Of a DNA stretch of 64,000 bases, positions 7,539-57,192 are shown in pieces (position 1 is the first letter of the stretch; each line of letters opens with the position of its first letter). The DNA lies in assembly GCA_019118645.1 (NCBI GenBank), contig DWYN01000140.1:1-64000 (forward strand), read 5' to 3'. This DNA is from Candidatus Blautia excrementipullorum (GTDB lineage Bacteria > Bacillota > Clostridia > Lachnospirales > Lachnospiraceae). The notes under the pieces were generated by a model that ran no database searches, was not told where the DNA came from, and saw only the letters and a list, made by a program, of their open reading frames with translations. A program made the translations under genes and the position numbers.

Positions 7539-7573
7539 AACTTTTTACCCCTTTCTGCACAAAATCCTTTCCT

Positions 7574-8272: not shown

Positions 8273-8370
8273 TTTCTCTACCTCCTGATCATTCATGCTT
8301 TCCTGTCGGACAGATTCCGGATCCCTCCGTCCCCTCTGTGATCTGTTATCCTAAGAATATCAGCTTAACT

Positions 8371-8411: not shown

Positions 8412-8514
8412 CAGATAAAATATAAAACCGTTCTGCAGGGCGGCTCCCGGACAGCCCGGAGCCGTTTCCGCCCAGAATATTGTATGCAGAGGCGGAAGAT
8501 CCGTCAAGTCCGCC

Positions 8515-9477: not shown

Positions 9478-9546
9478 AATCTCATCCTCCTCAAAGATAA
9501 ATGTTCCGGATCTCTTATTTTGCATAGTTTTTAAGCTATACAAAAT

Positions 9547-9562
9547 ATACAAATATAAGTAT
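9547..9562. promoter_or_regulatory. Candidate LysR binding site in the lysR-aspA intergenic region
   Basis: ATAC (9547-9550) and GTAT (9559-9562) form a dyad ending at the -35 of the aspA promoter. An extra ATAC half-site lies just upstream. The T-N-A type symmetry and the location fit LysR activation. Confidence 0.45.
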
Positions 9563-9591
9563 TTGATTATATTATAGGCCGCGAGTATACT
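9563..9591 (+). promoter_or_regulatory. aspA promoter
   Basis: TTGATT (9563-9568) and TATACT (9586-9591) are 17 bases apart, a good sigma-A promoter directly beside the LysR-type dyad. Confidence 0.75.
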
Positions 9592-9651
9592 GAACACAAC
9601 AGGAAGATTGCTCAGGAACGCCTGAAAATAGAAAACGTAAGGAGAATCATT

Positions 9652-11103
9652 ATGGATACCACAAATACAACAGATTACCGCAAAGAAAAAGACTCCATCG
9701 GCGTGAAAAATGTCCCGGAAGATGTTTACTACGGCGTACAGTCCCTCCGGGCCGCCGAAAACTTTCCGATCACCGGACTGAATATGCATCCGGAAATCAT
9801 CAACAGCCTGGCATATATCAAAAAAGCCGCCGCCATCACCAACTGTGAGATCGGAATACTGGACAAGAAAAGGGCTACGGCCATCGTTCAGGCCTGCGAT
9901 GAGATCATTGCCGGAAAGTTCCACGAAGACTTTATTGTAGATCCGATTCAGGGCGGCGCCGGCACCTCTCTGAACATGAACGCAAATGAGGTAATCGCCA
10001 ACCGTGCCATTGAGATTCTCGGAGGCCATAAAGGAGATTATTCCATAGTCAACCCCAACGACCATGTCAACTGCGGCCAGTCTACCAACGATGTCATTCC
10101 CACCGCCGGAAAGATGACCTCTCTCAGACTGCTGAAAAATCTGAAGAAAGAGCTTCTCCGTCTTCACAAGGCATTTTGTGACAAAGCTGCGGAGTTTGAC
10201 CATATTATTAAAATGGGCCGCACCCAGATGCAGGATGCTGTTCCCATCCGGCTGGGCCAGGAATTCCAGGCTTACTCCGTAGCGGTGAAAAGAGACATTA
10301 ACCGTATGGACAAGGCTATGGATGAAATGCGCACCCTGAACATGGGAGGCACCGCCATTGGAACAGGAATTAACGCAGATGAAGCTTATCTGGAACGTAT
10401 TGTCCCCAATCTGGTGGAAGTTTCCGATATGGAATTTGTCCAGGCATTTGACCTGATTGACGCAACCCAGAATCTTGATCCCTTTGTAGCAGTATCCGGC
10501 GCCATCAAGGCCTGCGCTGTAACTCTTTCCAAAATCGCCAATGATCTCCGTCTGATGTCCTCCGGCCCGAGAGCCGGCTTCGGAGAAATCAATCTTCCGG
10601 CACGCCAGAACGGTTCCTCTATTATGCCCGGAAAAGTAAATCCTGTCATACCGGAGGTGGTAAACCAGGTGGCCTTTAATATTATCGGAAACGATGTGAC
10701 CATTACGATGGCAGCCGAGGCAGGCCAGCTGGAGCTGAATGCCTTTGAGCCCATTATTTTCTACTGTATGTTCCAGTCCATCGACACTCTGGCCTATGCT
10801 GTGCGCACCTTTGTGGACAACTGTATTACAGGAATTACGGCCAACGAAGAGCGCTGCCGCTATCTGGTGGAAAACAGCGTCGGCGTCATTACCGCCATCT
10901 GTCCTTACGTCGGTTATCAGAAAGCAGCAGATATAGCCAAACAAGCAATGAAAACCGGAGAATCTGTACGAAGCCTGATCCTCAGAGAAAATCTTCTGAG
11001 CAAAGAGGAACTGGACCTGATTCTAAATCCGGTCAGCATGACGGAACCCGGAATTTCCGGCAAGGATCTTTTCCGCAAAAAGGCCCAGGACATCAGCAAG
11101 TAG
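9652..11103 (+). CDS. aspA: Aspartate ammonia-lyase (aspartase)
   Basis: This 483-residue member of the fumarase/aspartase superfamily carries the signature GSSIMPGKVNPVIPEVVNQV (about residues 322-341) with the catalytic loop serine. It also has the conserved TSTN-type region (CGQSTNDVIPTA) and GRTQMQDAVPI. It converts L-aspartate to fumarate and ammonia in the cytosol, feeding fumarate into anaerobic reduction or the partial TCA cycle. GSSIMPGKVNP alone does not exclude fumarase C, but overall length and the flanking residues favour aspartase. It is transcribed divergently from a LysR regulator. No terminator is obvious downstream, but the next gene has its own promoter. Confidence 0.9.
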   Translation: MDTTNTTDYRKEKDSIGVKNVPEDVYYGVQSLRAAENFPITGLNMHPEIINSLAYIKKAAAITNCEIGILDKKRATAIVQACDEIIAGKFHEDFIVDPIQGGAGTSLNMNANEVIANRAIEILGGHKGDYSIVNPNDHVNCGQSTNDVIPTAGKMTSLRLLKNLKKELLRLHKAFCDKAAEFDHIIKMGRTQMQDAVPIRLGQEFQAYSVAVKRDINRMDKAMDEMRTLNMGGTAIGTGINADEAYLERIVPNLVEVSDMEFVQAFDLIDATQNLDPFVAVSGAIKACAVTLSKIANDLRLMSSGPRAGFGEINLPARQNGSSIMPGKVNPVIPEVVNQVAFNIIGNDVTITMAAEAGQLELNAFEPIIFYCMFQSIDTLAYAVRTFVDNCITGITANEERCRYLVENSVGVITAICPYVGYQKAADIAKQAMKTGESVRSLILRENLLSKEELDLILNPVSMTEPGISGKDLFRKKAQDISK

Positions 11104-11130
11104 TCTTCCCAAAGGATCGGATTTTTCGAC

Positions 11131-11159
11131 TTGACAAACTTGCTCCACTTTTCTATAAT
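11131..11159 (+). promoter_or_regulatory. Promoter of the PerR-like regulator gene
   Basis: TTGACA (11131-11136), a 17-base spacer and TATAAT (11154-11159) form a consensus sigma-A promoter. Confidence 0.85.
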
Positions 11160-11161
11160 AT

Positions 11162-11176
11162 TAGTAACCATTATTG
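11162..11176. promoter_or_regulatory. Candidate Per box before the Fur/PerR-family gene
   Basis: TAGTAAC-C-ATTATTG is a 7-1-7 imperfect dyad overlapping the predicted transcription start. The 20-base stretch starting AGTAAC here matches the one upstream of reverse rubrerythrin at 17 of 20 positions, as expected for an autoregulated PerR regulon. Confidence 0.6.
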
Positions 11177-11209
11177 TTATTATATATTATAGAAGAAGGG
11201 AGTGAGTTA

Positions 11210-11605
11210 ATGGCCGCATTGAAATACAGCCGTCAGAGAGAATCCATAAAGGAATTCCTTATGACCCGTACAGATCATCCAACCGCAGATACTGTGTATG
11301 AAAATATGAAAATGATTTATCCTAATATCAGCCTTGGAACTGTTTACCGCAATCTCTCCCTCCTGTCTGATATTGGCGAAATACAGAAGCTTTCCAGCTT
11401 CGGCGGCGCCGACCGTTTTGACGGAAGAACGGAGCCCCACTGCCACTTTATCTGCACCAGATGCGGATGTGTGCAAGATCTGGAAATGGAGGATCTGGCA
11501 GAGATTATCCGGAAAGCCGGGGAGAATTTTAAGGGAGAAATTACAGAATGTACCGCCAGATTTTCCGGGCTTTGCGAAAACTGTTTAAAAAAAGAAAAAT
11601 GTTAA
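11210..11605 (+). CDS. Fur-family regulator, PerR-like peroxide sensor
   Basis: The 131-residue protein has the Fur-family winged helix (SLGTVYRNLSLLSDIG) and two structural zinc Cys pairs, C82-x2-C85 and C122-x2-C125. His23, Asp71, His77 and His79 occupy places matching the PerR regulatory metal site, with Asp rather than the Glu common in Fur. Metal-catalysed oxidation of such histidines releases PerR from DNA. The start is placed at ATG 11210 behind GAAGGGAG; an upstream in-frame ATG has no such site. The next two genes are rubrerythrins, and the shared operator motif supports peroxide control. The family does not by itself exclude an iron or zinc sensor. Confidence 0.85.
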   Translation: MAALKYSRQRESIKEFLMTRTDHPTADTVYENMKMIYPNISLGTVYRNLSLLSDIGEIQKLSSFGGADRFDGRTEPHCHFICTRCGCVQDLEMEDLAEIIRKAGENFKGEITECTARFSGLCENCLKKEKC

Positions 11606-11614
11606 GATTTCCCC

Positions 11615-11643
11615 TTGACATTTAGATACCTTTGTGTTAGATT
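11615..11643 (+). promoter_or_regulatory. Reverse rubrerythrin promoter
   Basis: TTGACA (11615-11620) and TAGATT (11638-11643) are 17 bases apart. Confidence 0.75.
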
Positions 11644-11658
11644 AAAGATATAGCAAAA

Positions 11659-11673
11659 CAGTAACAATTACTA
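11659..11673. promoter_or_regulatory. Candidate Per box before reverse rubrerythrin
   Basis: CAGTAAC-A-ATTACTA is a 7-1-7 dyad with a perfect AGTAA/TTACT core. It lies 16 bases downstream of the -10, where bound repressor would block elongation or initiation. It closely resembles the site at 11162. Confidence 0.6.
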
Positions 11674-11712
11674 TTATTAATTAAAACAAACTAAGAAAAG
11701 GAGATAATTACT

Positions 11713-12255
11713 ATGGCAAAATGGGTATGTAGTGTATGTGGTTATGTTTATGAAGGCGAGACAGCTCCGGAAGTATGTCCAATCTGCAAGGCTCCGGCTG
11801 AGAAATTCACAAAGCAGGATTCTGAAATGTCCTGGGCTGCTGAGCATGTAGTAGGCGTTGCAAAAGGCGTAAGCGAAGATATCCTTGCTGACCTGAGAGC
11901 AAACTTCGAAGGCGAGTGCTCTGAAGTTGGTATGTATCTGGCAATGGCTAGAGTTGCTCACAGAGAAGGTTATCCGGAAATCGGATTATACTGGGAAAAA
12001 GCAGCTTACGAAGAAGCAGAACATGCAGCGAAATTTGCTGAACTGCTTGGCGAAGTTGTAACAGACAGTACCAAGAAGAACCTTGAAATGCGCGTTGCAG
12101 CAGAAAACGGCGCTACTGCAGGTAAATTCGATCTTGCAAAACGTGCAAAAGAAGCTAACCTTGACGCAATTCATGATACTGTTCATGAAATGGCAAGAGA
12201 CGAAGCTCGTCACGGAAAAGCATTCGCCGGCCTTCTGAAGAGATATTTCGGCTAA
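11713..12255 (+). CDS. Reverse rubrerythrin (NADH-dependent peroxide reductase component)
   Basis: This 180-residue protein has the rubredoxin module at the N-terminus (Cys6, Cys9, Cys22, Cys25), followed by a four-helix ferritin-like di-iron domain with repeated ExxH-type ligands ([23 protein letters not shown]). That order is the reverse of classical rubrerythrin. Reverse rubrerythrins of clostridia reduce hydrogen peroxide and oxygen with electrons from NADH through redox partners. The gene has its own strong promoter and a PerR-type site, plus AAAAGGAG before the ATG. It lies directly downstream of the PerR-like gene and upstream of a second rubrerythrin. Confidence 0.93.
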
Positions 12256-12278
12256 TCTGAAATTCTATAGGAAAATAC

Positions 12279-12304
12279 GGGACCGGCATTAACTGCCGGT
12301 TCCC
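12279..12304 (+). terminator. Hairpin after reverse rubrerythrin
   Basis: GGGACCGGCA (12279-12288) and TGCCGGTTCCC (12294-12304) form a strong stem. No T run follows, so it may slow or stabilise the transcript rather than act as a full terminator. Confidence 0.5.
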
Positions 12305-12376
12305 TGATATCATTCTGTATCCTGGTCTATTTTATAATATAGCAGGATAAGCGAAACTATAATAATGGATTTGATA

Positions 12377-12440
12377 AGAGACTTGGAGAAAAGCAGTGTC
12401 ACCAATAAACGGCATCAGCAGCATCACAGGTCTCTTTTTT
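12377..12440 (+). promoter_or_regulatory. Possible attenuator in the rubrerythrin leader
   Basis: AGAGAC (12377-12382) can pair with GTCTCT (12430-12435), which runs into six T residues only a few bases before the AGGAGG of rubrerythrin. This could be a weak intrinsic terminator in the leader. The long loop makes it uncertain. Confidence 0.25.
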
Positions 12441-12457
12441 ACAAACAGGAGGAATTT

Positions 12458-12994
12458 ATGTCTAAATATGCAGGAACCAAAACAGAAAAGAACCTGATGG
12501 CGGCCTTTGCCGGGGAGTCTGAGGCAAGAAACAAATATACTTTCTATGCTTCCGCAGCAAAAAAAGCCGGATACGAACAGCTTGCCGCCCTTTATCTTGA
12601 AACAGCAGACCAGGAAAAAGAGCATGCAAAAATGTGGTTCAAAGAATTCCACGGAATTCATGATATCGCAGAAAATCTGGAAGACGCCGCAGCAGGCGAA
12701 AACTTTGAATGGACAGACATGTATGCCCGGATGGCAAGAGAAGCCCGCGAAGAAGGTTTTGAGGAGCTTGCTCTGAAGTTCGAGGGTGTAGCCAGAGTAG
12801 AAGCAGCTCATGAAAAGCGCTACAAAAAACTTCTGGAATCCTACAAAAACGATAAGACTTTTAAGGGAGACGCTCCTTTAGGCTGGAAGTGCCGCAACTG
12901 CGGTTATGTACATATGGCGGAGGAAGCGCCGGAAGTCTGCCCGGTATGCGCGCATCCCAGAGCTTACTTTGAGCGCAAAGTAGAAAACTACTGA
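12458..12994 (+). CDS. rbr: Rubrerythrin
   Basis: This 178-residue classical rubrerythrin has an N-terminal ferritin-like di-iron domain ([34 protein letters not shown]) and a C-terminal rubredoxin module with Cys145, Cys148, Cys161 and Cys164. It reduces hydrogen peroxide in anaerobes using electrons from rubredoxin or NAD(P)H oxidoreductases. The start is set at ATG 12458 behind AGGAGG; the frame extends 31 codons upstream without a ribosome binding site. It lies 200 bases after the reverse rubrerythrin, so the two opposite domain orders sit side by side. No clear Per box was found directly upstream of this copy. Confidence 0.93.
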
Positions 12995-13018
12995 TAATTC
13001 CCGCTTTTCATCCATAAG

Positions 13019-13069
13019 AAAAGCCAGAGGAAAATCAACGTACACCGTATGATTTTTCTCTGGCTTTTT
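13019..13069. terminator. Bidirectional terminator between rbr and the HD-domain gene
   Basis: AAAAGCCAGAG with its AAAATCA extension (13019-13037) pairs with TGATTTTTCTCTGGCTTTTT (13050-13069). T runs follow on both strands, and it serves two convergent genes. Confidence 0.85.
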
Positions 13070-13076
13070 CGCCGCT

Positions 13077-13637
13077 TTAATTTTCCGCGATTTTTCTCCT
13101 GCTGACCTCGCGTACTTCCTCTCTCAGTTTCTTCATATATTCCGAAAACTCCACCTTATCGTTGCCATAAGTCATCTGAAGAGAATATTCCAGAGGAAGC
13201 CAGGTGCGGATATCTGATTCATTGTGCTGTATCAGGGCCTCCAGATTGTCCAGAGCCTTGAATATCTTTGCTTCCAGAGAGTTCCTCTCCTTCATTTCCC
13301 GGAAGAGTTCCTGCATTTCTTCCGCAAAAGGCGCCGGAAGGTCTCTTACCCATGCGGACAGAAGCTCGTCTTCTCTTTTTTCATCCTTTTCAGTCTTTTC
13401 AAATGTGGGGATATCTCCTGTAAAAGCCTCCCCCAGATCATGTATCAGGCACATTTTAAGAAGCTTTTCCAGATCCGCCTCTGGAAACTCGCTGCTAACA
13501 AAATACGCCATCAGCGCTGTCCTCCAGGAATGCTCCGCTACGCTTTCTCTTCTTCCGCCTGAGGTATAACAGTGTCTCACCGCATCTTTCAATTTTTCCG
13601 CCGTTCCCATAATCTCCAGCAGTTTTCCAGGTTCCAT
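13077..13637 (-). CDS. HD-domain protein, YfbR/HDDC2-like 5'-deoxynucleotidase
   Basis: The 186-residue protein has the HD metal-dependent phosphohydrolase pattern: His in ESVAEHSWRTALMAY, the His-Asp pair in CLIHDLGEAFTGDIP, and a later Asp in FKALDNLEALIQHNESD. This arrangement and length fit the YfbR/HDDC2 group, which dephosphorylates deoxynucleoside monophosphates in the cytosol. GGGAGG precedes the ATG. It is convergent with rbr and lies downstream of the carboxypeptidase gene on the same strand, 112 bases away, possibly cotranscribed. The exact substrate is inferred from family only. Confidence 0.8.
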   Translation of the reverse strand: MEPGKLLEIMGTAEKLKDAVRHCYTSGGRRESVAEHSWRTALMAYFVSSEFPEADLEKLLKMCLIHDLGEAFTGDIPTFEKTEKDEKREDELLSAWVRDLPAPFAEEMQELFREMKERNSLEAKIFKALDNLEALIQHNESDIRTWLPLEYSLQMTYGNDKVEFSEYMKKLREEVREVSRRKIAEN

Positions 13638-13749
13638 CTCTTTCCTCCCTCTTCTCTTCCATCCGGCTTCTTTTTTCTGTATTTTTCATGTCTTCCAGTG
13701 ATCCGGCAGCCGCACTTTCCCGGCCAAAATCCGCTTCCGCCCCGGGCGC

Positions 13750-14712
13750 TCAGCTTTCCAGAGCCTGGGCAGCCTCTCCGAGACGGTTATAAATCGTCAC
13801 CGCGTCTGTAATATGCGGAGTTCCCGCCGAAAACGCCCCCGCCGTCACCAGTATGTACTCTGTACCGTCAATCTCTGCAAAACTCGCCAGGCACAGCCCT
13901 GCGTCATTTGTAAATCCGGTTTTGCCTCCCAGTATTTTGCCGCCTATCACTGAAGGATCCGGAAGATTATTGAACATACTGCTGTAAAAAGTAATTCCAT
14001 CCGGATGGATATTGGTCCCGGGAGTAGAATGATAGGGGCTCTCGATGATTTCCCGGAAAGTTTCATTTCGGATCGCGTACTTCAGAAGAACAGCAATGTC
14101 CTTCACAGTGCTGTAATGATTCGGATCATGAAGTCCTGTGCTGTCGCAGAAGTGTGTCCCGTCCATTCCCAGCTTCTCCGCCTTCTGATTCATGAGCTCC
14201 ACAAACCCTTCTTCCGATCCGGCAATCGTATCCGCCAGCGCAATACAGCATTCCGCCCCTGAGGGAAGCATGACGCCGTAGAGAAGATCGATGGCTCTTA
14301 CGGTTTCATCCGGCTGAAACCCTGCCTGTGTGGCGTCTCTCTCATACAGCCCGGCGAACGTCTCATTTGTCAGTGTAATCTCCTGGTTCAGATCATCCAG
14401 CTCCTCTATCGCCACGATAGCCGTCATGATCTTTGTCATAGAAGCAGGGTACATCGTCTCCTCACTGTTGATCTCCCCGATGACTTTTCCGCCTTTGGCC
14501 TGCATCAGCACTGCATAGGTGCTGTTGATCCCGCTGATATCCAGTTCCTGCACCACCGGCTTTCCAAGCTGCGCCAGCCAGTCGCCGAATCCGGAACGCC
14601 AGCCCAGCATCAGCACCAGAGCCAGGACAGCTGCAATTTCCACTGCAATACAGAGAAACAGCGTGCTTCTCTTCCTTCTCCTTCTGTTTTTTCTTCTCCT
14701 GTTATCTGCCAC
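13750..14712 (-). CDS. D-alanyl-D-alanine carboxypeptidase (penicillin-binding protein, S11)
   Basis: The 320-residue protein starts with a very basic cytoplasmic tail and a membrane anchor (about 17-37), then an S11 transpeptidase-fold domain. Active-site motifs are SMTK (Ser91 to Lys94), SGA at 151-153 where SxN is classical, and KTG at 264-266 in GGKTGFT. It trims the terminal D-Ala from peptidoglycan stem peptides outside the membrane. The start is GTG behind GGAGAGG. The N-terminal anchor replaces the C-terminal amphipathic anchor of DacA. SGA instead of SGN is, as I recall, a known variant in this group. It lacks a visible C-terminal extension domain. Confidence 0.88.
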   Translation of the reverse strand: MADNRRRKNRRRRKRSTLFLCIAVEIAAVLALVLMLGWRSGFGDWLAQLGKPVVQELDISGINSTYAVLMQAKGGKVIGEINSEETMYPASMTKIMTAIVAIEELDDLNQEITLTNETFAGLYERDATQAGFQPDETVRAIDLLYGVMLPSGAECCIALADTIAGSEEGFVELMNQKAEKLGMDGTHFCDSTGLHDPNHYSTVKDIAVLLKYAIRNETFREIIESPYHSTPGTNIHPDGITFYSSMFNNLPDPSVIGGKILGGKTGFTNDAGLCLASFAEIDGTEYILVTAGAFSAGTPHITDAVTIYNRLGEAAQALES

Positions 14713-43830: not shown

Positions 43831-44589
43831 TTACAGTACAGAATCCACCAGACGCCGGGTATATTCTTCCCGGGGACTGGAAATAATCTCATCCGGAGTT
43901 CCACTTTCTACGACCCTTCCCTCGTACATAACCAGAACACGGTCGCAGAATGCCTGTACCAGAGTGAGATCGTGACAGATAAAAAGAAAACTTCCCATCC
44001 CCTTTTCCTTCAGCTTCAGAAGCAGCTCCAGAATTTGTTTCTGAACAGTAACGTCCAGAGCGCTGGTAGGCTCGTCACAGATCAGAAGCTCCGGCTGGAC
44101 AGCAAGCGCTCTCGCAATTGCTGCCCGCTGGCATTCTCCTCCGCTGACCTGATGGGGATATTTCCCCGCAAATTCCGGCGTCAGGCCGCACTGCACCAAC
44201 AGCTCTTTCACCTTCTCTTTTGTCTCTCTCCGGCTCATTCCGGCGTTTCTCAGGCTTTCACCAATTCCGTTTCCAAGGGTATATCTGGGGTCAAAGGATT
44301 CTCCCGGCATCTGAAAGATCATCTGCATGTTCCGGTATGCCTTTCTCATTTCTCTGCTCCCCGCTTTTGTGAGATCCTGTCCCATCAGAAGAATCCTCCC
44401 CTCCGTAGGGGGAATAAGCCCCGTTACCAGCCGGGCTACCGTAGTTTTCCCGGATCCGGACTCTCCTACAATTCCCAGAGCCTCGCCTTTTTTTACCTCA
44501 AAACTTACATCGTGGACAGCGGTAAATCCGCCTTTTTCCGATGAAAATTTTTTTGTCAGGTGTTCCGCCCTTAATATGATATCTGTCAT
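43831..44589 (-). CDS. Nickel/peptide ABC importer ATP-binding protein (NikE/DppF type)
   Basis: The 252-residue ATPase has Walker A GESGSGKTT, signature VSGGECQRAAIARALA, Walker B LLICDEPTSALDVTVQ and the switch LFICHDL. The GECQR form and short length match the second ATPase of nickel, oligopeptide and dipeptide importers. It is the last gene of a five-gene importer operon on the minus strand. The C-terminus ends at RRLVDSVL, so it lacks the oligopeptide-binding extension of OppF. Confidence 0.9.
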   Translation of the reverse strand: MTDIILRAEHLTKKFSSEKGGFTAVHDVSFEVKKGEALGIVGESGSGKTTVARLVTGLIPPTEGRILLMGQDLTKAGSREMRKAYRNMQMIFQMPGESFDPRYTLGNGIGESLRNAGMSRRETKEKVKELLVQCGLTPEFAGKYPHQVSGGECQRAAIARALAVQPELLICDEPTSALDVTVQKQILELLLKLKEKGMGSFLFICHDLTLVQAFCDRVLVMYEGRVVESGTPDEIISSPREEYTRRLVDSVL

Positions 44590-44681
44590 GCTCTACTCCT
44601 GTATCCAAAACAAAATACGCCATTTTCCGGCGTCCGCATACATTTCCCTCCGGATCTTCCCGGATTTCATCACGATTTTTC

Positions 44682-45464
44682 TCAGTCTCTCTTCAGACTC
44701 AGGACGGAATCCATCAGCTTCCTTGTATATGCGTCGCAGGAATGTTCCAGAACTTCCCCGGTTTCTCCGTAATCTCTTACACGACCGTCTTTGAGGATCA
44801 GTATTTTATCCGCCATTTTTTTCACCAGTCCGATATTGTGCGTCACAAGGATCATGGCGGTATGATATTCCTCCCGCATAAAAAGAAGCTCGTCCGCCAC
44901 CTGCTTCTGTACTGTAACGTCCAGGGCGCTGGTGGGCTCGTCCGCAAGGAGAAGTCTTGGATTCATCATCATGGCCGTACAGATTCCCACACGCTGGTTC
45001 ATCCCTCCGGACAGTTCAAAAGGATAGCTGTTCCATACTCTCTCATAATCCGGCAGGCCGATTTTTTTCATGATCTCCGCAGCCCGTTTTTTTGTCTCTG
45101 ATTTTTTAATCTTTTCATGGGCGGATACTGCTTCATGTATCTGCGCGCCTACCGTCCGGACTGGGCAGAAAGACGCCTTGCAGTCCTGAAACACCATGCC
45201 GATCTCCGGTCCCAGATACTTTCGCCTGGTTCCTCCCGGCATATCGGTCAGATTCTCGCCTTTGTACCAGATGTCTCCCCGGGTTACCATGCCGTTTTCT
45301 CCAAGGATTCCAAGTACGGCCCGGACGATCGTACTTTTTCCGCTCCCGGATTCACCTACAATACCCAGAATTTCTCCCTGCTCCACCTGAAAACTGACAT
45401 CCTGCACAACGGGAATTCCATTATAGCAGACAGTGATATGTTCCGCACAAAGCAGAGGTTCCAT
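44682..45464 (-). CDS. Nickel/peptide ABC importer ATP-binding protein (NikD/DppD type)
   Basis: The 260-residue ATPase has Walker A GESGSGKST, signature ELSGGMNQRVGICTAMM (the GGMNQR form of the NikD/OppD group), Walker B LLLADEPTSALDVTVQ and the switch ILVTHNIG. It pairs with the ATPase at 43831. Both NBD genes follow the binding protein. Confidence 0.9.
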   Translation of the reverse strand: MEPLLCAEHITVCYNGIPVVQDVSFQVEQGEILGIVGESGSGKSTIVRAVLGILGENGMVTRGDIWYKGENLTDMPGGTRRKYLGPEIGMVFQDCKASFCPVRTVGAQIHEAVSAHEKIKKSETKKRAAEIMKKIGLPDYERVWNSYPFELSGGMNQRVGICTAMMMNPRLLLADEPTSALDVTVQKQVADELLFMREEYHTAMILVTHNIGLVKKMADKILILKDGRVRDYGETGEVLEHSCDAYTRKLMDSVLSLKRD

Positions 45465-45574
45465 AAGCTATTTTTCCTTTCTTTCTGACGTCATATCCCA
45501 TACGGCCGGCGCAGGAGCAGATACTCCAGCCCCTCACCTCCGCACCGGATATCTTCATAAATTCCCTGCTTCAT

Positions 45575-47110
45575 TTACTCCACATCCAGCTCTGCCGTGA
45601 TCTCGTAGTAATCGCAGGGATGAGCCGCCATTCCTGTAACGTTGGACTTTGTGACAATTCCCATATTCAGATGGGATACAAAGAACATCGCGTTGTCATC
45701 CAGAATCTTCTGCTGAAGCTGCACCGCCAGATCGTCCCTCTCCTCTGGATCAAAAGTCTGGTGAAGCTTTTCCGTAAGCGCCGTCACTTCCTCGTTCTGA
45801 TAATTCCCGTAATTCTTTGGCCCGGTTACCGTACTGGTGAAGAAATACTCCGGATCTCCTGTTGGCGCTGTTGTGAAAGAGCTTACATATACGTCAAAAT
45901 CCCCCTCCTGGGCATAGGTCATATGATCGGAGGTATTGTTCACCGCCACATCAATACCGATCTCCTTCAGGGTAGCCTGGGCATACTCCGCCAGCTTGGG
46001 CTGTTCCAGCCGGGTTGGATATGTCAGCCAGTTCACTGTCAGCTTTTCTCCGTCTTTGTCCACATAACCGTCACCGTCTGTATCCGTCCAGCCGGATTCC
46101 TTCAGAAGTTCCTTCGCTCCTTCCGGGTCGTAGGATACTGTTGTCACCGCTTCATTTCCATAGGAAAAACTGTCGGGAAAGGCTGCTGCTGCCGGAAGCC
46201 CCCGCCCCGCCATAATCACAGAACAGAAACCTTCCTTGTCGATTCCCATTGCCACCGCTTTTCTCACATTCTCATCCTGCATGATCTCTGATTCAAAATT
46301 AAACTGTCCAAAGAAGCAGCGGCTGGTAGCACAGGAATTAATCGTATAGTCAGAATTTCCTTCAAAAAGCACATAGTTGTCATACTGAAGACCGTAAGTA
46401 CCCTGGACGTCCCCAGTCTGAAGCGCTGCCGTAAGGGCGCTTCCGTCGGAAAAGGATTTCACCGTTACTTTATCCACTTTTACGTCTCCGCCCCAGTAAT
46501 CATCATTTTTTACAAGTTCAATCTGGGTAGGCGTTACTTCTGTAGCGATATAGGGCCCTGTTCCCGCCACATTTGCAAAACCGTCTTCGCCCCGAACCCC
46601 ATATTCCATATCAATGATCGCCCCATAAGGATCTCCCAGATAATTGATGATGGCCGGGCAGGGTTCCGTCGTATAAATGGTAAGGGTCATTCCTTCTGCT
46701 TCGATATGATCGATCTTAAGATCAGAAGGCGCCCGGTCATGCACAGCAACCAGATTGTCCAGACATTCCTTCACTGCCTGGGCGTCCATGGTACGGCCGC
46801 TGGAAAATTTTACACCGTCGCGGAGAGTGATCTTCACTGTAGTGTCATCCACAAACTCATAGTCTGTGGCAAGCCAGGGCTCCACTTCCATGTTGTCGTT
46901 ATACTTGAACAGTGTTTCGCCTACTCCGTAGCGCACCGCGCTCCATCCAGAATAATTGTCATGAGGATTCAGCCCCGCGTCTCCCATTTCCTCACTGTAT
47001 CCTGTAGTGCCGTAAACAAAGGTTTTCTCCTCCCCGGCAAAGGCCTGGGCCGGCAGACATACTGACAGCATTGCTCCCGTCAGAGCGGCTGCGATTATTT
47101 TTTTCTTCAT
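45575..47110 (-). CDS. Nickel/peptide-type ABC substrate-binding protein
   Basis: This protein of about 511 residues belongs to the SBP_bac_5 family (NikA, OppA, DppA), with GLNPHDNYSGWSAVRYGVGETLFKYN near the start, WLATDYEF and ITLRDGVKFSSGRTMDA. The signal peptide (MKKKIIAAALTGAMLSVCLPAQAFA) ends in a signal peptidase I site; a Cys at residue 18 follows LSV, which is a poor lipobox. The start is ATG 47110 behind GGAGGAG. By length and N-terminal motifs it is closest to NikA-like proteins, but a ligand cannot be read from the sequence. Its neighbours, the LysR and methyltransferase-hydrolase fusion genes, suggest a modified amino acid, chelator or short peptide. Confidence 0.85.
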   Translation of the reverse strand: MKKKIIAAALTGAMLSVCLPAQAFAGEEKTFVYGTTGYSEEMGDAGLNPHDNYSGWSAVRYGVGETLFKYNDNMEVEPWLATDYEFVDDTTVKITLRDGVKFSSGRTMDAQAVKECLDNLVAVHDRAPSDLKIDHIEAEGMTLTIYTTEPCPAIINYLGDPYGAIIDMEYGVRGEDGFANVAGTGPYIATEVTPTQIELVKNDDYWGGDVKVDKVTVKSFSDGSALTAALQTGDVQGTYGLQYDNYVLFEGNSDYTINSCATSRCFFGQFNFESEIMQDENVRKAVAMGIDKEGFCSVIMAGRGLPAAAAFPDSFSYGNEAVTTVSYDPEGAKELLKESGWTDTDGDGYVDKDGEKLTVNWLTYPTRLEQPKLAEYAQATLKEIGIDVAVNNTSDHMTYAQEGDFDVYVSSFTTAPTGDPEYFFTSTVTGPKNYGNYQNEEVTALTEKLHQTFDPEERDDLAVQLQQKILDDNAMFFVSHLNMGIVTKSNVTGMAAHPCDYYEITAELDVE

Positions 47111-47141
47111 GTTTTCTCCTCCTGTATTCTTCACTGTATTT

Positions 47142-47996
47142 TCACCCTCTCCGCTTAGGATCCATATAATCTCTGAGGGCGTCTCCCAGCAGATTGAAAA
47201 TCATTACAGTAATAAAAATTGCTGCTCCGGGAGCAAGTACCATCCACGGGGAAATCTGCAGCATGCTTCTCCCGTCATTAATCATACTTCCCCACTCGGC
47301 CACAGGGGGCTGTACCCCGAGTCCCAGAAAGGAAAGTCCCGCAAGCTCCATCATCATAGTTCCGATATCCAGCACCGCCGTTACCAGAACCGGTCCCGCA
47401 ATATTCGGCAGCACATGCTTTAAAAGAAGTCCCAGAGTACTGCATCCCGAAAGTTTTGCCGCCATGATATAAGGGGAATTCTTCTGCGTCATTGTCAGTC
47501 CTCTGGCAAGGCGGGCAAATTTCGGCCATCCGATAACCGCCAGGGCAATCACCGCGTTATGGATCCCTCCGCCGAGCACCCCTGCCACAGCCAGGGCAAA
47601 CACAAGGCTGGGGAAGGCCAGAAACAGATCGGAAAGCCTCATCAATACTGCGTCCGCCCCTTTGTCGTACCAGCCGCAGATCATACCGACCGCAGTTCCC
47701 ACCGCCGTCACAACGGCCACAAGTGCGAGAGTGGCATATATGCTTATAGTGCTGCCTGCCAGCACACGGGAAAACATGTCTCTGCCGAACCGGTCGGTTC
47801 CCAGAAGATGAGAAGCTCCCGGCGGCTGCTGCGCAATCATAAGATTCTGCTCATTAGGATCATAAGGACAGAGATATTCCGCAAAAGCCGCTGTTAGAAG
47901 AAGCAGTGCTGTCAGGACTGCAAAAAAAATCAACTTTCTCTTTATATGATTCTTTTTTATTTTTTGTTTTCGTTCCGTAATTTTTCCACTGTTCAT
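47142..47996 (-). CDS. Nickel/peptide ABC importer permease (NikC/DppC type)
   Basis: The 284-residue permease has a basic N-terminus, about six hydrophobic segments, GASHLLGTDRFGRDMFSRVLAG (the DppC/NikC lead motif) and the EAA-like loop with KLSGCSTLGLLLKHVLPN. It forms the membrane channel with the upstream permease. AGGAGG precedes the ATG. Confidence 0.93.
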   Translation of the reverse strand: MNSGKITERKQKIKKNHIKRKLIFFAVLTALLLLTAAFAEYLCPYDPNEQNLMIAQQPPGASHLLGTDRFGRDMFSRVLAGSTISIYATLALVAVVTAVGTAVGMICGWYDKGADAVLMRLSDLFLAFPSLVFALAVAGVLGGGIHNAVIALAVIGWPKFARLARGLTMTQKNSPYIMAAKLSGCSTLGLLLKHVLPNIAGPVLVTAVLDIGTMMMELAGLSFLGLGVQPPVAEWGSMINDGRSMLQISPWMVLAPGAAIFITVMIFNLLGDALRDYMDPKRRG

Positions 47997-48023
47997 GGAT
48001 ACCTCCTGGTAAATTAAAACAAA

Positions 48024-48959
48024 TCAGCGCGACAGTCTTACACGGGGATCCAGATAATGATAAATAATGTCCGTCACCAGATTTACCAGTACATAGATCA
48101 CCGCCATCCATGCCACATACGCCTGAACAATGGGATAATCTCTCATGGTTATGGCATCCACCGCCATTTTTCCTACTCCGTCCCACATAAAGATCGTTTC
48201 CACGATCGTCGTACCACCCAGGAGACTTCCCACAGAAAGCGCCAGAAGAGTAATGATCGTCAGCATAGAAGCTTTCATCACATTTTTCCAGACAATCACA
48301 CTACCCCTCACGCCTCTGGCCATTGCTCCCATAACATAATCCTTATTCAGCTCCTCAAGAACCGTAGCTCTCACCTGTCTGGTGTATTTCGATGCCATGG
48401 AAACGGCCAGGGTCAGCGTTGGAAGAATCAAGCTCAGCAAACGGTTTTCCGATGTAACCACAGGAAGCCATCCAAGTTTCACAGAAAAAAAGTACATCAA
48501 AACCAGAGCCACAAAAAAATTCGGCATAGAATTTCCAATAAAACTCAGAAAGCGTATCAGGTAATCTACCCATCTGTTATGCCTGACTGCCGAGATGATC
48601 CCCAGAGGAATGGAGATCATCATTGTCAAAACCAGAGAGGAAAGCATCAGGAGAACCGTTGCCGGGAGCTTTTCAATAAACGTATCATAAACATCACGGT
48701 TCGACACATAACTGATCCCCATGTCCCCAGTTATCATTCCGGCAAACCACCGACCATACTGCACCAGAAAAGGCTGGTCAAGCCCATATTCTTTTCTTGC
48801 CTGGTCGATTACCTCCTGGGAAACCGCCGTCCCGGTATTTTCATACATATAAGTAACCGCGTCCCCTCCGGCCAGTCTCATCATGGCGAAGGAGAGAAAG
48901 GTAATCCCGATCAGCACCGGAATCATCTGTAGCAGCCGTTTTATGATATATTTCAGCAT
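48024..48959 (-). CDS. Nickel/peptide ABC importer permease (NikB/DppB type)
   Basis: The 311-residue permease begins MLKYIIKRLLQMIPVLIGITFLSF and has YTRQVRATVLEELNKDYVMGAMARG, the EAA-type loop of DppB/NikB. It heads the operon permease-permease-binding protein-ATPase-ATPase. No clear -35/-10 was found upstream; a hairpin at 49063-49103 separates it from the LysR gene. Confidence 0.93.
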   Translation of the reverse strand: MLKYIIKRLLQMIPVLIGITFLSFAMMRLAGGDAVTYMYENTGTAVSQEVIDQARKEYGLDQPFLVQYGRWFAGMITGDMGISYVSNRDVYDTFIEKLPATVLLMLSSLVLTMMISIPLGIISAVRHNRWVDYLIRFLSFIGNSMPNFFVALVLMYFFSVKLGWLPVVTSENRLLSLILPTLTLAVSMASKYTRQVRATVLEELNKDYVMGAMARGVRGSVIVWKNVMKASMLTIITLLALSVGSLLGGTTIVETIFMWDGVGKMAVDAITMRDYPIVQAYVAWMAVIYVLVNLVTDIIYHYLDPRVRLSR

Positions 48960-49062
48960 ATTATAATCCTCTTAAATGATAATCTGCAGTCGGGCCCCTC
49001 TCCGCCGGAAGTTCAGAAATCCCCGGCTGCCTTTCCGCAATGACAAAATTTTATCAAAAACC

Positions 49063-49110
49063 AGAATACCGCACAACCCTCCACTGGGGTTATGCGGTAT
49101 TCTTATTTTT
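49063..49110. terminator. Hairpin between the LysR gene and the importer operon
   Basis: AGAATACCGCA (49063-49073) and TGCGGTATTCT (49093-49103) are perfect 11-bp arms around an inner hairpin. A T run follows on the minus strand (GGTTTTTG) and also on the plus strand. It ends the LysR transcript. Confidence 0.75.
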
Positions 49111-49176
49111 CATATTTTATCCATTTTATGGAATACCTGCCCTGCAGGAATTACCGTCACCACATATAAACGTATC

Positions 49177-50088
49177 TCATTGCCGGCATAATCTTTCATT
49201 CAAAAACGAGATCAGCTCCTCCACTGCCTCATCAGGCACCTCTCCCCGGTGCCTGATATAACCGAAAATAACTTTGTTTTCCGGCATATCCAATGAAATT
49301 GCCCGGGCACCCCCCTGCTGTTTGTCTGAGAGATAACTGCCGCTGATATTCGCCGCGCTTGTGCTTTTCAGCATCCGTTCCATTATATAGTCGCTGTTTG
49401 TCACCACTGAAATATCCAGTCCGCTCCATGAAAACTGAGGCTTTTCCTCAGACTGTCCCAGATTGAAAAACTCATCCTGATAATTCTGGATAAACCGCAG
49501 TCCTTTCAGCTCCTCCGGCTTCACCGTTTTCTGACCGCTGCTGGAAAGTCCGTTTCCGGCGCCCGGATACAGCATCAGCTCCGTCTCGTGCATCGGAATA
49601 AATTCCAGCCTGTTTCTGGAAAGCTCATACAGAAAGTCCGACTTCTGCTGCTCCGGAATATAAACGAAGCCCACATCATCCAGATAATCTCTCACTCTTT
49701 CCAAAACTGTACGGACGCCTGCCGTATAAATCTGAAAATGATAATTTTTATCATAATTTTGATTGTAAAAATCTATAAACTGATCGGCAAACCAGGAACT
49801 TGGATTCAGCGAGATCCTGATCCATTTTGTCATTCCATGCTCCGCCATCCCCTCCAGGGTCCGGACCTCATTAACGATTTTGCAGGCATGGCGGTAAAAT
49901 TTTTTTCCCCGGGCTGTCAGGCGGATTCCCCGGGGAAGGCGCTCAAACAGCTGAATTCCCAGAGAATCCTCCAGCGCCTTAATTACCTTGCTTACGCTTG
50001 GCTGAGTGGAATATAAAATTTTCGCGGCTTCGCTCACAGATCCCGTCTCCGCGCAGGCCATAAAATACTCAAGCTGTTTAATGTCCAT
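49177..50088 (-). CDS. LysR-family regulator of the fusion-protein/importer locus
   Basis: The 303-residue protein has the LysR helix-turn-helix (GSVSEAAKILYSTQPSVSKVIKALEDSLG, residues 17-45) and an effector domain. It overlaps the end of the methyltransferase-hydrolase gene by 11 bases, so the two are cotranscribed and translationally coupled. The importer operon follows on the same strand after a terminator, so this regulator probably controls the importer, the fusion gene, or both. The effector is unknown and may be the imported ligand. Confidence 0.9.
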   Translation of the reverse strand: MDIKQLEYFMACAETGSVSEAAKILYSTQPSVSKVIKALEDSLGIQLFERLPRGIRLTARGKKFYRHACKIVNEVRTLEGMAEHGMTKWIRISLNPSSWFADQFIDFYNQNYDKNYHFQIYTAGVRTVLERVRDYLDDVGFVYIPEQQKSDFLYELSRNRLEFIPMHETELMLYPGAGNGLSSSGQKTVKPEELKGLRFIQNYQDEFFNLGQSEEKPQFSWSGLDISVVTNSDYIMERMLKSTSAANISGSYLSDKQQGGARAISLDMPENKVIFGYIRHRGEVPDEAVEELISFLNERLCRQ

Positions 50089-52606
50089 AAGGTTTCCTCG
50101 TACGCAGCATAAACATAGGCACCGGATTGTAAAAGGCGTCTTTTTCCAGATAAATTCTGCCGCTTATCCCCAGATCCACCGCAAACTCCTGAAGCTTCAT
50201 AGCTCCCAGAGTTTCCAGATCCCAGGCCGGACGGCTATAGGAACTGATAGGCAGCTGACGCTTAATCTCCTCACATTCCCTCATCATTTCGTCACCGATG
50301 GTCTGATGGGCATGGTTTTCAGGAAGGGAAGAGACATCTGTAAAGTCGCTCAGTCCATAGTTAGCATCAAAATTCAAAAGTACCCCGCCCTTTTTCAGCA
50401 CACGGACCCAGTCCCGGTAAGCATGGCGTACATGGGGAAGCGTCCATGTAAGATTTCGGGAAATTACCACATCAAAGGTTTCATCAGAAAAATCAAGTTT
50501 CTCTGCATCCATGATCAAAAATTCACAGCCTGCCTTCTCCTCAGCCGCCAGAATCTTCGCGTTCTCGATCATGTCCGGCGTCAGATCGATTCCTGTCACC
50601 CTGTGTCCTTCCCTGGCCAGAAGCACTGAGAAAAAGCCCGCACCGCAGCCCACGTCAAGAATCCGCAGGCTTTCCCCCTCCGGAAGCTGGGACCGGATCT
50701 CTTTCATCCAGCGCTCAGCCATCTCGCTGTGAAGCTCCTCTCTTTTATGCGTCAGAAAATCGCTGCTGCGTTTTTCCCAATAATGTACGATCCGTTCCTT
50801 CCGTTCATCGTAGGGATTTACTATCTTTCCATAGGCGATCATAGGACCGTCTCCAAGGACCTGAAGGGATCCCGTCTGATAGAGGATCACGCCGCCGAAC
50901 TCCGCTATACTGACCTCTTTCACATTTCCTTCATAATCCCGTATCTCTCCCAGCTTTTCACCTCTGTGGATCATGTCTCCCGGTTTCCTGCAGGGATACC
51001 AGAGACCATCCTGGGAGGCGTCCTGGTAGCGGACATCCGTCACCTCCAGAGGATAATATGTCCGGTAATCCTTCTGTCCCTGATAAAGTCCCAGATGGCA
51101 GAGAATATTGCGGACGTCCCGTCTTGTAGAACGAACCTCCTCATATGTCCATCCCCCCATGCCGCCTCTCTCTATGAGAATACTGGGAATTCCCTGAGAC
51201 GCGGCATAATTATAGGAACCGCCGGAAGCCACATCTGATCTTACCATATAAGGCACATCCACCTGCTCCGCCATTCTTCTGGACATTGCCACAACCTCTT
51301 TATCCGCCCTGCCCGCGTAATAGACATAGGGGGTAAGCTGCTCATAATCATCTCCGCTGTGGAGATCAATATAATAATCCGCCGCAGGCTGCAGTTCACG
51401 GGCCAGGGCCCAGGCAAGGCGCTCCATCTCCGTTCCGTCAGGATCTCCCGGAAATTCCCGGTTCAGATTCTTTCCGTCCTCAAGTCCCATACTTCCGTTC
51501 CGCCGCTCAAAGGCAGGAAGATTCGCAACCTTTACAATAATCACAGTTCCTATGACTTTCTCAATCTTCAGTTTTTGAGAAAGCTCCACAGCCGCCTGAA
51601 TCCCCACATACTCTCCGGCATGCACCCCCGCGGTGATCAGCATGGTCTTTCCCGGTCTTTCGCCGTGCAGCACGGAGGCGGGCAGGCGGAATTTTCCTCC
51701 GTCCAGTTCAAGATAGCCGCTCCACCGCTGTCCGGGAAGCACTTCTATATTATTTAACCGAAATATCCTGTTTTTTTCCCCGGTCAGCAAAAATACAGGA
51801 GTAGATCCATTATTGATAATCTCCTCTTCTGTCCAGACTTCCTTCCATACATCTTTATCGCAGCTCACCCTCTGGAATCCTGCTGTTTTCATAGCTTCCA
51901 TATCCCAATGCGGGCGCTTCATGCGGCTTAAAGGAACCTGTCTGGCAATATTTTCCATACGCTCAATATCGGTTCCTCTGTAATAGTCCTCCACTTCCTT
52001 TTCTTCCGTCTGGCGGCGGTCCATCTCGTATCCGCTCCTTTTTTCCTCATCAAAAAGATGCCCGTACCAGTCGGCGTCAAAATTATAAAGAACTCCGCCC
52101 TCTTTCAGAACCCGGTGCCATTCCCGGTATGCCTGCTCCGGTTTCGGAAGGTTCCAGGTTACATTTCTGGTAACAACTGCATCAAACACCTCATTATCCT
52201 CGCTAAGATCCTGCACGTCTTCCAATTTCCACAGAATCTTCTCTGCCATTTCTCCGGCATTCCGGCGGGCTTCCCTCAGCATCTCTTCCGTAGCGTCCAC
52301 AGCAGTCACCTGATATCCCGCTTCCGCAAGAAGGATGGCAAAAAATCCCGGGCCTGTACCTGCATCCAGGATTTTTATCTCCGAAGGTTTCCTGTCAGGA
52401 AATCTCCCTCTTAACAGGGAGAGAAGTTTTTCTCTCCACATATCTCTCCTGGCGTCCGCCATTTCCTGCTGGTTATATTCCGAATAGCCCCTGGCCCGCT
52501 CTGTCCAGTATGCGCGGATTTCCTCCCGCAGTTCCGTGCTCTCCATCTGTATTGCTGTTTCCCGGCCGGTAACGTCCCGGTCTACTTTTTTCTGTGATAT
52601 CGTCAT
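50078..52606 (-). CDS. Methyltransferase - M14 zinc hydrolase - methyltransferase fusion protein
   Basis: This 842-residue cytosolic protein has three domains. Residues 27-270 form a class I SAM methyltransferase (motif I ILDAGTGPGFF at 79-89). Residues 280-595 form an M14/AstE-aspartoacylase-like hydrolase with zinc ligands His329 and Glu332 (HAGE) and His416 (DLHSGDD), a substrate motif NLNREFPG (380-387), likely catalytic Glu479, and a barrel-sandwich tail with DGLWYPCRKPGD. Residues 600-842 form a second methyltransferase (ILDVGCGAGFF at 649-659). The two methyltransferases share SRNLTWTLP/TRNVTWNLP and the surrounding block, so they arose by duplication. All key residues look intact. GGGGAG precedes the ATG. 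The gene overlaps a LysR gene and lies upstream of a nickel/peptide-type importer. I do not know a characterised protein with this architecture. Confidence 0.88.
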   Translation of the reverse strand: MTISQKKVDRDVTGRETAIQMESTELREEIRAYWTERARGYSEYNQQEMADARRDMWREKLLSLLRGRFPDRKPSEIKILDAGTGPGFFAILLAEAGYQVTAVDATEEMLREARRNAGEMAEKILWKLEDVQDLSEDNEVFDAVVTRNVTWNLPKPEQAYREWHRVLKEGGVLYNFDADWYGHLFDEEKRSGYEMDRRQTEEKEVEDYYRGTDIERMENIARQVPLSRMKRPHWDMEAMKTAGFQRVSCDKDVWKEVWTEEEIINNGSTPVFLLTGEKNRIFRLNNIEVLPGQRWSGYLELDGGKFRLPASVLHGERPGKTMLITAGVHAGEYVGIQAAVELSQKLKIEKVIGTVIIVKVANLPAFERRNGSMGLEDGKNLNREFPGDPDGTEMERLAWALARELQPAADYYIDLHSGDDYEQLTPYVYYAGRADKEVVAMSRRMAEQVDVPYMVRSDVASGGSYNYAASQGIPSILIERGGMGGWTYEEVRSTRRDVRNILCHLGLYQGQKDYRTYYPLEVTDVRYQDASQDGLWYPCRKPGDMIHRGEKLGEIRDYEGNVKEVSIAEFGGVILYQTGSLQVLGDGPMIAYGKIVNPYDERKERIVHYWEKRSSDFLTHKREELHSEMAERWMKEIRSQLPEGESLRILDVGCGAGFFSVLLAREGHRVTGIDLTPDMIENAKILAAEEKAGCEFLIMDAEKLDFSDETFDVVISRNLTWTLPHVRHAYRDWVRVLKKGGVLLNFDANYGLSDFTDVSSLPENHAHQTIGDEMMRECEEIKRQLPISSYSRPAWDLETLGAMKLQEFAVDLGISGRIYLEKDAFYNPVPMFMLRTRKPYGH

Positions 52607-52704
52607 TTTTCTCCCCTGTTGTTTCCTAATATATTTTAGTAATCCGCCTTAGCGCTGATGCCAGATCGACGCTGAGCTTTTTTCCCGGCAAATATGTTAC
52701 ACAT

Positions 52705-52744
52705 TATAAAAAAAAGCTTCCCCCGGGACAAGCCTCCCCGGGGG
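52705..52744 (-). terminator. Terminator after the glycolipid glycosyltransferase gene
   Basis: CCCCCGGG (52720-52727) and CCCGGGGG (52737-52744) are perfect arms; on the minus strand a run of T residues follows. It separates the lipid operon from the fusion-protein gene. Confidence 0.9.
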
Positions 52745-52763
52745 ATAGTTTTACAGTTTCCTG

Positions 52764-55854: not shown

Positions 55855-57192
55855 ATGAACGAAACCTTTATGAAAGAAAAACCAGTTTTCCCATTAATCA
55901 TGTCCATGGCCCTTCCCATGGTAATTTCCATGCTGGTCAATTCTTTATATAATATTGTAGACAGTTTTTTTGTGGCGCAGATCAGCGAAAAAGCCATGAC
56001 CGCCCTTTCCTTAGTCTATCCTGTCCAGAATTTTATTAACGCTGTGGCTATCGGCTTTGGAATCGGAATCAATGCTCTGATTGCTTTTTATCTGGGCGCC
56101 GGCAACAACGAGGCCGCAGATGCCGCGGCTACACGGGGTACAGTGCTGACCATTCTCCACGGACTTCTTATGACTGCCGGCTGCATCGCGGTTATGCCCC
56201 ATTTTCTCCGTTTCTTTACCACAGACCCGGAAGTAACAGAGCTGGGGATCCGCTACTCCAATATTGCGTTTTCCTTCTCCCTGGTCATTGTTCTGGATCT
56301 GTCTTTTGAAAAAATCTTCCAGGCTCTTGGAAAAATGAAGATTACGATGATTGCTCTTATGTGCGGCTGTCTCACCAACATTTTTCTGGATCCTGTACTG
56401 ATCTTCGGCCTGGGGCCTTTCCCTGAGATGGGCATCGATGGAGCCGCCCTTGCCACAGGACTGGGACAGATGGTAAATCTTGTGATTTATCTGGCAATTT
56501 ATAAACTTCGTCCCATTCATGTACAGCTAAAAAAGAAATACCTGAAACCAGATAAAAGCATTGATCTGAGACTATATTCTATCGGAATTCCTTCAGCACT
56601 GAATCTGGCCCTGCCGTCTCTTCTGATCTCCGTGCTGAACAGTCTTCTGGCCGTATACTCTCAGAGCTATGTGGTAATACTGGGAATCTACTACAAGCTT
56701 CAGACCTTCCTTTATCTTCCGGCCAGCGGAATCATTCAGGGAATGCGCCCGGTAATCGGCTATAACTACGGGGCAAAGGAATACAATCGCGTACGGAAGG
56801 TCTATCTGGTCACTCTGGCTATGAGCAGTGTGATCATGATCGCCGGGACGATAATCTGTCTTGCCGTTCCGGGACAGCTTATCGGTCTCTTTACCGAAAA
56901 TCCCGAAACCGTACAGGCCGGGAAAACGGCACTGCGCATTATCAGCGCGGGATTTCTCGTATCCGCCGTTTCGGTTACATCCTCCGGCGCACTGGAGGGA
57001 CTTGGAAAGGGAACCTCTTCCCTGATCATCTCGCTTTGCCGCTATGTAATCGTCATACTGCCAGCCGCCTTTCTTTTAAGCCGCATCTTTGGCGCCCCGG
57101 GAGTATGGCATGCCTTCTGGATCGCAGAAGCCGTTACCGCTGTTGTGGCCTTCCTGATCACCAGAAAAAAAGTATATCTGACCTGCCGTTAA
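55855..57192 (+). CDS. MATE-family multidrug/toxin efflux transporter
   Basis: The 445-residue protein has twelve predicted membrane helices and the MATE pattern: PLIMSMALPMVISMLVNSLYNIVDSFFVAQ near the start and a repeat of the same fold in the second half (DLRLYSIGIPSALNLALPSLLISVLNSLL; GIIQGMRPVIGYNYGAKEYNRVRK). It couples sodium or proton influx to export of organic cations or metabolites. GGAGG lies 12 bases before the ATG. The unusually structured leader suggests ligand-dependent expression. Confidence 0.92.
   Translation: MNETFMKEKPVFPLIMSMALPMVISMLVNSLYNIVDSFFVAQISEKAMTALSLVYPVQNFINAVAIGFGIGINALIAFYLGAGNNEAADAAATRGTVLTILHGLLMTAGCIAVMPHFLRFFTTDPEVTELGIRYSNIAFSFSLVIVLDLSFEKIFQALGKMKITMIALMCGCLTNIFLDPVLIFGLGPFPEMGIDGAALATGLGQMVNLVIYLAIYKLRPIHVQLKKKYLKPDKSIDLRLYSIGIPSALNLALPSLLISVLNSLLAVYSQSYVVILGIYYKLQTFLYLPASGIIQGMRPVIGYNYGAKEYNRVRKVYLVTLAMSSVIMIAGTIICLAVPGQLIGLFTENPETVQAGKTALRIISAGFLVSAVSVTSSGALEGLGKGTSSLIISLCRYVIVILPAAFLLSRIFGAPGVWHAFWIAEAVTAVVAFLITRKKVYLTCR

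Follow-up and report, generated by a model that had tools for sequence, protein, structure and literature searches.

The window analysed here is a stretch of 64,000 nucleotides from Candidatus Blautia excrementipullorum (contig DWYN01000140.1). It codes for a protein in which two methyltransferase (MT) domains flank an M14 hydrolase domain. The gene is followed by lysR and by a Nik-type importer with the gene order B-C-A-D-E, all on the reverse strand. We describe this locus and its relatives and consider a role in the acquisition of nickel or cobalt. The features of the locus are:

52703..52745 (-): hairpin resembling a terminator of the preceding gene, and promoter-like site 5' of the fusion gene (consensus matches only)
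50078..52606 (-): MT1-M14-MT2 fusion gene, 842 residues (MT1 about 24-280, M14 284-600, MT2 601-842)
49177..50088 (-): LysR-type regulator, overlapping the fusion gene by 11 nt
49063..49103 (-): conserved hairpin in the lysR-nikB gap, its core (ATAACCC..GGTTGT) invariant
48024..48959 (-): NikB-type permease (NCBIfam Opp2B, 369.9 bits, above the cut-off of 350)
47142..47996 (-): NikC-type permease (NCBIfam Opp2C, 306.4 bits, above the cut-off of 300)
45575..47134 (-): NikA-like solute-binding protein (SBP) with a secretion-signal-like start and no lipobox match
44682..45464 (-): NikD-type ATPase (open reading frame and family models)
43831..44589 (-): NikE-type ATPase (open reading frame and family models)

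All parts named in a preliminary description of this DNA (the 842-residue protein with its domain order and intact motifs, the overlap with lysR and the five-gene importer) are confirmed in the sequence. Pfam assigns Methyltransf_11 to two stretches of the fusion protein (161 bits) and AstE_AspA_cat (PF24827) to residues 318-504 (99.6 bits against a gathering cut-off of 25). The zinc ligands and the catalytic Glu of the M14 domain (H329, E332, H416 and E479) are all present. MT1 and MT2 share 33% identity across 254 alignment columns (E 1e-45). In an alignment of 15 fusion proteins, these four positions of M14 are invariant, as are the glycine-rich S-adenosylmethionine motifs of both MT domains; among 38 sequences, E479 is kept in at least 90%, not in all. 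The start codon is an ATG at 52606, with AGGGGAG four bases 5' of it. The predicted structure has a mean pLDDT of 89 and a pTM of 0.72 (MT2 alone, pLDDT 95). Residues 1-18 have a pLDDT below 50, and conservation is lacking over about the first 20 residues.

The M14 domain resembles DoeB (N-acetyl-2,4-diaminobutyrate deacetylase, 6twm) in its fold, and the zinc ligands, the catalytic Glu and an NLNR motif align. It differs from DoeB in being fused to two MT domains, and the identity is only 26%. The DoeB equivalog cut-off of 402.7 bits is not reached (119.5 for the whole protein, 119.2 for the M14 domain alone). The whole protein exceeds the cut-off for UbiG (TIGR01983; 109.7 against 102.95) because the scores of the two MT domains add up; each domain by itself stays below it (51.4 and 63.2). 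The model for the corrinoid-protein-associated CpaM (NF043040) scores 115.9 with a cut-off of 180 (single domains 58.4 and 62.4). Both sequence comparison and Foldseek point to bipartite phosphoethanolamine N-methyltransferases (5wp5), which, like the fusion, combine two class I MT domains in a single chain. These lack an M14 domain between the MT domains, and their context is unrelated.

Relatives were collected by searching the genus and by scanning named genomes; the scan, by two peptide patterns, comprised 372 relatives, the best 80 of which were kept as 78 loci. The locus material comprises 140 stretches, five of which are flank extensions (L117-L120, L126), plus these 78 loci. The locus set draws on the stronger of the matches listed. 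Groups with the same last 150 residues of the first core gene entered the counts a single time. Related species are still included, so that the loci are not independent. With a threshold of E<=1e-30, at least 49 of 299 genomes of the family (298 genera) have a match to one part or another of the enzyme; at E<=1e-35, at least 42 of 398 genomes of the phylum match. The fusion was found in Blautia (B. caecimuris, B. wexlerae, B. luti, B. schinkii, B. massiliensis and B. glucerasea), in Fusicatenibacter saccharivorans and in others. Acetobacterium, Clostridium magnum, Lactonifactor longoviformis and others carry the enzyme in split form. The enzyme may be encoded as one chain, as M14-MT2 with a separate MT1, as an MT-MT chain or by three separate genes; MT pairs, single MTs and M14 alone also occur. 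Split genes (M14-MT plus MT, or separate genes) thus replace the fusion elsewhere, a point which the preliminary description had raised. In L078, a second copy in genome G162, MT1, M14 and MT2 are in separate short frames, which looks like a decaying fusion.

Loci were picked by the enzyme, not by the importer. An importer was called Nik-type at 180 bits or more to NikB or NikC of the window, or 230 to NikA. Such an importer lies within 9 kb in 141 of the 193 loci, so that the association is conserved; the lack of association that would have refuted the preliminary description is not observed. Five further loci have only another importer of the wider class, and 23 are undetermined. By type, a Nik-type importer accompanies the fusion in 22/28 loci, M14-MT2 in 30/38, the MT-MT chain in 2/6, a separate MT plus M14 in 14/15, two MTs in 23/25, a single MT in 33/51 and M14 only in 17/30. 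The genome of the window has one NikB-like gene (E<=1e-20), which makes a chance adjacency unlikely. The regulator accompanies the enzyme only partly: LysR is encoded within 3 kb of the fusion in 16 of 28 loci.

E. coli NikABCDE is likewise a five-gene importer, and the permeases of the window pass the nickel cut-offs of Opp2B and Opp2C. In contrast to the E. coli system, the window importer has an MT/M14 partner enzyme and a LysR regulator, and its SBP and permeases score below the cut-offs of the E. coli-type NikA, NikB and NikC models. Not even a loose lipobox match is seen in 16 of the 21 SBPs closest to that of the window, compared to 2 of 46 in the next group. This lack is odd for a Gram-positive importer.

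Cobalamin riboswitches were identified by Rfam in Acetobacterium, C. magnum and others, and none were found in L191 or L173. A model (R1) was built from seven Rfam hits, which are themselves among the hits later found. It gave 35 hits in 191 sources; all 28 of these that were run through Rfam are RF00174. Runs with importer or enzyme genes are headed by 24 of the 35 (23 with Nik-type importer genes). MT or M14 runs are headed by 17, corresponding to 16 distinct loci (L079 = L198) and thus to a minority of the 193. Examples are riboswitch-NikBCADE-M14-MT1-MT2-MATE (L079), riboswitch-M14-LysR-NikBCADE (L201) and riboswitch-CbiK-MT-MT-NikBCADE-MATE-CbiM-CbiQ (L098). Loci with and without such a riboswitch coexist in some single genomes of the genus of the window (L037 and L056 in G001; L038, L054 and L065 in G004; L036 and L053 in G016), and these might be paralogs serving different metals. 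A riboswitch scan of same-genus loci and L174 had as its sole yield a fluoride riboswitch beside the fusion gene of L020 (4080-4151). In two riboswitch-led operons, a 4Fe-4S domain protein is encoded between MT and nikA (L223, 8767-9465, copy assigned by Pfam; L226, 7278-7976).

The riboswitches would also fit a function in corrinoid salvage, with the hydrolase and the MTs acting on an imported cobamide or precursor. Some loci have genes for CbiK and a tetrapyrrole methylase nearby (L097 has both, and HemD), which agrees with this, as does a Peripla_BP_2 neighbor that is BtuF-like by interpretation. The folds of the enzyme neither favor nor oppose it. A NikA-type binding protein and the LarEBC context point to the metal, however, and we regard salvage as the most improbable of the explanations considered. 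The Lar genes, which belong to the nickel-pincer cofactor, score above their cut-offs in L116, where they end the run MT-NikBCADE-LarE-LarB-LarC (5814-14485).

Other neighbors also relate to nickel or cobalt. As judged by similarity to Pfam-named examples, 10 of 192 loci have CbiM encoded at a distance of up to 8 kb, 6 have CbiK and 9 a P-type metal ATPase. The cbiM gene is scarce (20 copies in 41 genomes), and a rough chance expectation is about 0.6 loci. CbiM was rejected as proof of cobalt, because six of seven scanned CbiM proteins are below the NCBIfam cobalt cut-offs (only that of L029 passes); nickel is possible there. The gene for a metal-sensing repressor directly precedes nikA in L203 and directly follows nikE in L183 and L201. 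In L095, a NiCo riboswitch (7814-7891, (-)) precedes a cation-efflux gene between MT2/M14 and the Nik operon. Some additional operon genes were observed. FmdE-type genes (L073, L139, L195 and L218; L195 checked by Pfam) account for 5 of 127 extra operon genes and 1 of 1446 others. Lipoprotein-like genes, often after nikE, occur in L083 (1478-2704, this copy without a Pfam match), and similar ones in seven loci.

Nickel-dependent enzymes co-occur with the MT/M14 enzyme. Among the 299 family genomes, nickel-containing CO dehydrogenase (CODH) was called by TIGR01702 at E<=1e-60 (61 of 64 such genomes are above the model cut-off). It is present in 31 of 49 enzyme-matching genomes and in 33 of 250 others (p 1.4e-12). 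Lar_N is found in 18/49 and 44/250, respectively (p 0.003), while rhamnose isomerase (RhaA), used as control, has no link (12/49 and 78/250, p 0.87). CODH is encoded in 12 of 13 genomes with the fusion or an M14-MT2 chain, and the genome of the window has three CODH and two Lar_N matches. Riboswitches, nickel or cobalt neighbors and the co-occurrence with CODH together support the guess of the preliminary description that a metal is involved; its interpretation is thus borne out in part. They, with CbiM, CbiK and Lar among the neighbors, also speak against amino acid or peptide catabolism, in which the importer would feed a nutrient that is deacylated by M14 and the metal context would be incidental. 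In favor of catabolism, the importer superfamily also carries peptides, peptide importer models match the window importer below their cut-offs, and the nearest named relative of M14 is a deacetylase. We consider catabolism highly improbable, only marginally less so than corrinoid salvage.

The hairpin between lysR and nikB is shared with L032, L067, L133, L135, L140, L142, L155, L183, L184, L191, L201, L249 and L250. It precedes nikB in these loci, except for L249, where it precedes cbiM, and it is absent from the lysR-nikB gap in some other loci. In the outer stem, both sides change in 7 of 14 pairs among 13 distinct sequences; the mere count of such pairs is matched by 153 of 500 shuffles. 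The covariation score is 0.359, compared to at most 0.105 when the hairpin is slid, and none of 500 shuffles is as high. Across 41 genomes there are seven occurrences of the exact core pattern: four precede nikB, one (in G023) lies between nikE and cbiM, and two are elsewhere. The reversed pattern does not occur in these genomes. A T-run and a TAAAAT-like box mostly follow 3' of the hairpin. It may end transcription, serve as the operator of LysR, or do both.

From the context, we predict that the locus very probably serves the uptake of nickel or cobalt, and that the fusion enzyme probably acts on the ligand of the metal. The NikBCADE importer would bring in Ni2+ or Co2+ as a complex with a small organic ligand, which the cytoplasmic MT1-M14-MT2 protein would process chemically. 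The M14 domain would cut an amide adjoining a free carboxylate. Methylation, probably of amines, would be the task of the two MT domains. The processed ligand would release the metal and would then be recycled or expelled. LysR regulators usually sense organic molecules, and that of the locus would sense one of this pathway. Gene content, its conservation and the association with importers and with nickel or cobalt genes are observed, whereas the metal-ligand cargo, the substrate of the enzyme and the order of events are what we infer. For the latter, we lean slightly towards action after import rather than in biosynthesis, because the importer is often retained where there is a single MT or M14 only, because no bond-forming enzyme is conspicuous among the recurrent neighbors (mostly named by eye) and because of the usual ligands of LysR regulators. 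As a whole, the explanation as a nickel/cobalt acquisition module with a ligand-processing enzyme is the one that we favor by a modest degree of belief.

Several observations weigh against it. An importer of the wider class is lacking in 24 of the 193 loci despite at least 6 kb on both sides. Where M14 occurs alone and an importer is present (17 loci), nikA, nikB or nikC is within 1.5 kb in only 3 cases. The window SBP is below the nickel cut-offs (Opp5A_nikA, 337.8 of 600; TIGR02294, 192.4 of 393). The cobalamin riboswitch (RF00174) is absent from the window, from 19 same-genus loci (with 1.5 kb flanks) and from L174. The NikA clade of the window (67 rows in a tree of 132 NikA-like proteins) has a single riboswitch-labelled member, from A. 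dehalogenans, with the order M14-LysR-NikBCADE as in the window. The counts of CbiK and of P-type metal ATPases as neighbors come without a control. Shared descent confounds the link to CODH, though the 299 genomes span 298 genera. The terminator-like hairpin separates lysR from nikB, so that enzyme and importer need not share one transcript in the window and may be uncoupled. Finally, in-operon MATE exporters also suit the export of a metallophore made by the cell.

The last point leads to the close rival of post-import processing, namely that the enzyme makes or tailors a nickelophore or cobaltophore. This would be secreted by MATE or another exporter, and NikABCDE would retrieve the complex, as for staphylopine. 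MATE genes are in line in the operons of L183 (7363-8775; A. wieringae, MATE-MT1-M14-LysR-NikBCADE-metal repressor), L079 (6591-7961), L098 (1759-3105), L114 (6626-7981) and L206 (14203-15600), and also in L201 (6477-7835). Two MTs would suit tailoring. MATE accounts for 8 of 127 extra operon genes and 28 of 1446 others (p 0.006; six of the eight checked by Pfam). As the commonest neighbor (14 loci) it was discounted, its density being near chance by estimate; a mild enrichment is confined to the in-operon count. No exporter gene was found in the operon of the window, and its MATE gene (55855-57192) is outside the operon on the opposite strand. Biosynthesis is also disfavored by the commonness of M14-only and single-MT loci, and a bond-forming enzyme is not prominent among the recurrent neighbor families, most of them named by eye.

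The importers of Cnt systems belong to the same class as the Nik-type, and this class also carries opine metallophores, which favors biosynthesis. As a point against it, the window importer misses the Cnt cut-offs (CntA, 134 of 800; CntC, 209 of 440; CntD, 235 of 380; CntF, 238 of 385), and its operon has no opine dehydrogenase or nicotianamine-synthase-like gene. CntL and CntM were not found in the gene run of the window, whose seven genes belong to other families; the neighbors of the relatives were not scanned with those models. Staphylopine and pseudopaline systems share with the locus that ligand enzymes accompany the importer and, according to a zincophore survey, extra methyltransferases adjoin some zincophore clusters (PMC7438024). 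Overall, we judge biosynthesis rather unlikely. Slightly more doubtful still is its extended version, in which the MT/M14 proteins of acetogens and gut Lachnospiraceae make a dedicated secreted nickelophore or cobaltophore of a new chemical class, with same-genus paralogs for cobalt (B12 riboswitches) and nickel (LysR/Lar context).

Such importers are already known, some of them predicted under B12 riboswitches. That prediction probably goes back to Rodionov 2006. NikABCDE of Clostridium tetani and Desulfitobacterium hafniense, with a predicted B12 riboswitch upstream, are described as exceptions to nickel specificity (Zhang et al. 2009, PMC2667541). These systems resemble the riboswitch-led loci, and the passages of that article considered here do not mention an MT or M14 partner. 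In Butyribacterium methylotrophicum, overexpression of NikABCDE aids growth on methanol, and nickel for CODH/acetyl-CoA synthase (ACS) was proposed as the reason (PMC9847067). An MT or M14 partner of such an importer is likewise unmentioned in the passages considered of PMC9847067, PMC4285132 and PMC7689651, leaving only the methyltransferase remark of PMC7438024. In the open-licence literature, no paper found has, judging by its title and the opening of its abstract, an MT/M14 partner or the fusion as its subject. That these parts recur together in other anaerobes, fused or separate and often close to nickel and cobalt genes, points to an undescribed handling of a small metal-carrying molecule.

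Nickel for CODH and cobalt for corrinoids are required by acetogens and by many anaerobes of the gut, and little is known about how they acquire these scarce metals. If our explanation is true, the organic ligand of a nickel/cobalt importer is handled by a widespread set of enzymes that has no name as yet. A function would be suggested for many unassigned methyltransferases and DoeB-like hydrolases encoded beside Nik operons, and whether gut bacteria use a nickelophore or cobaltophore would become a directly testable question.

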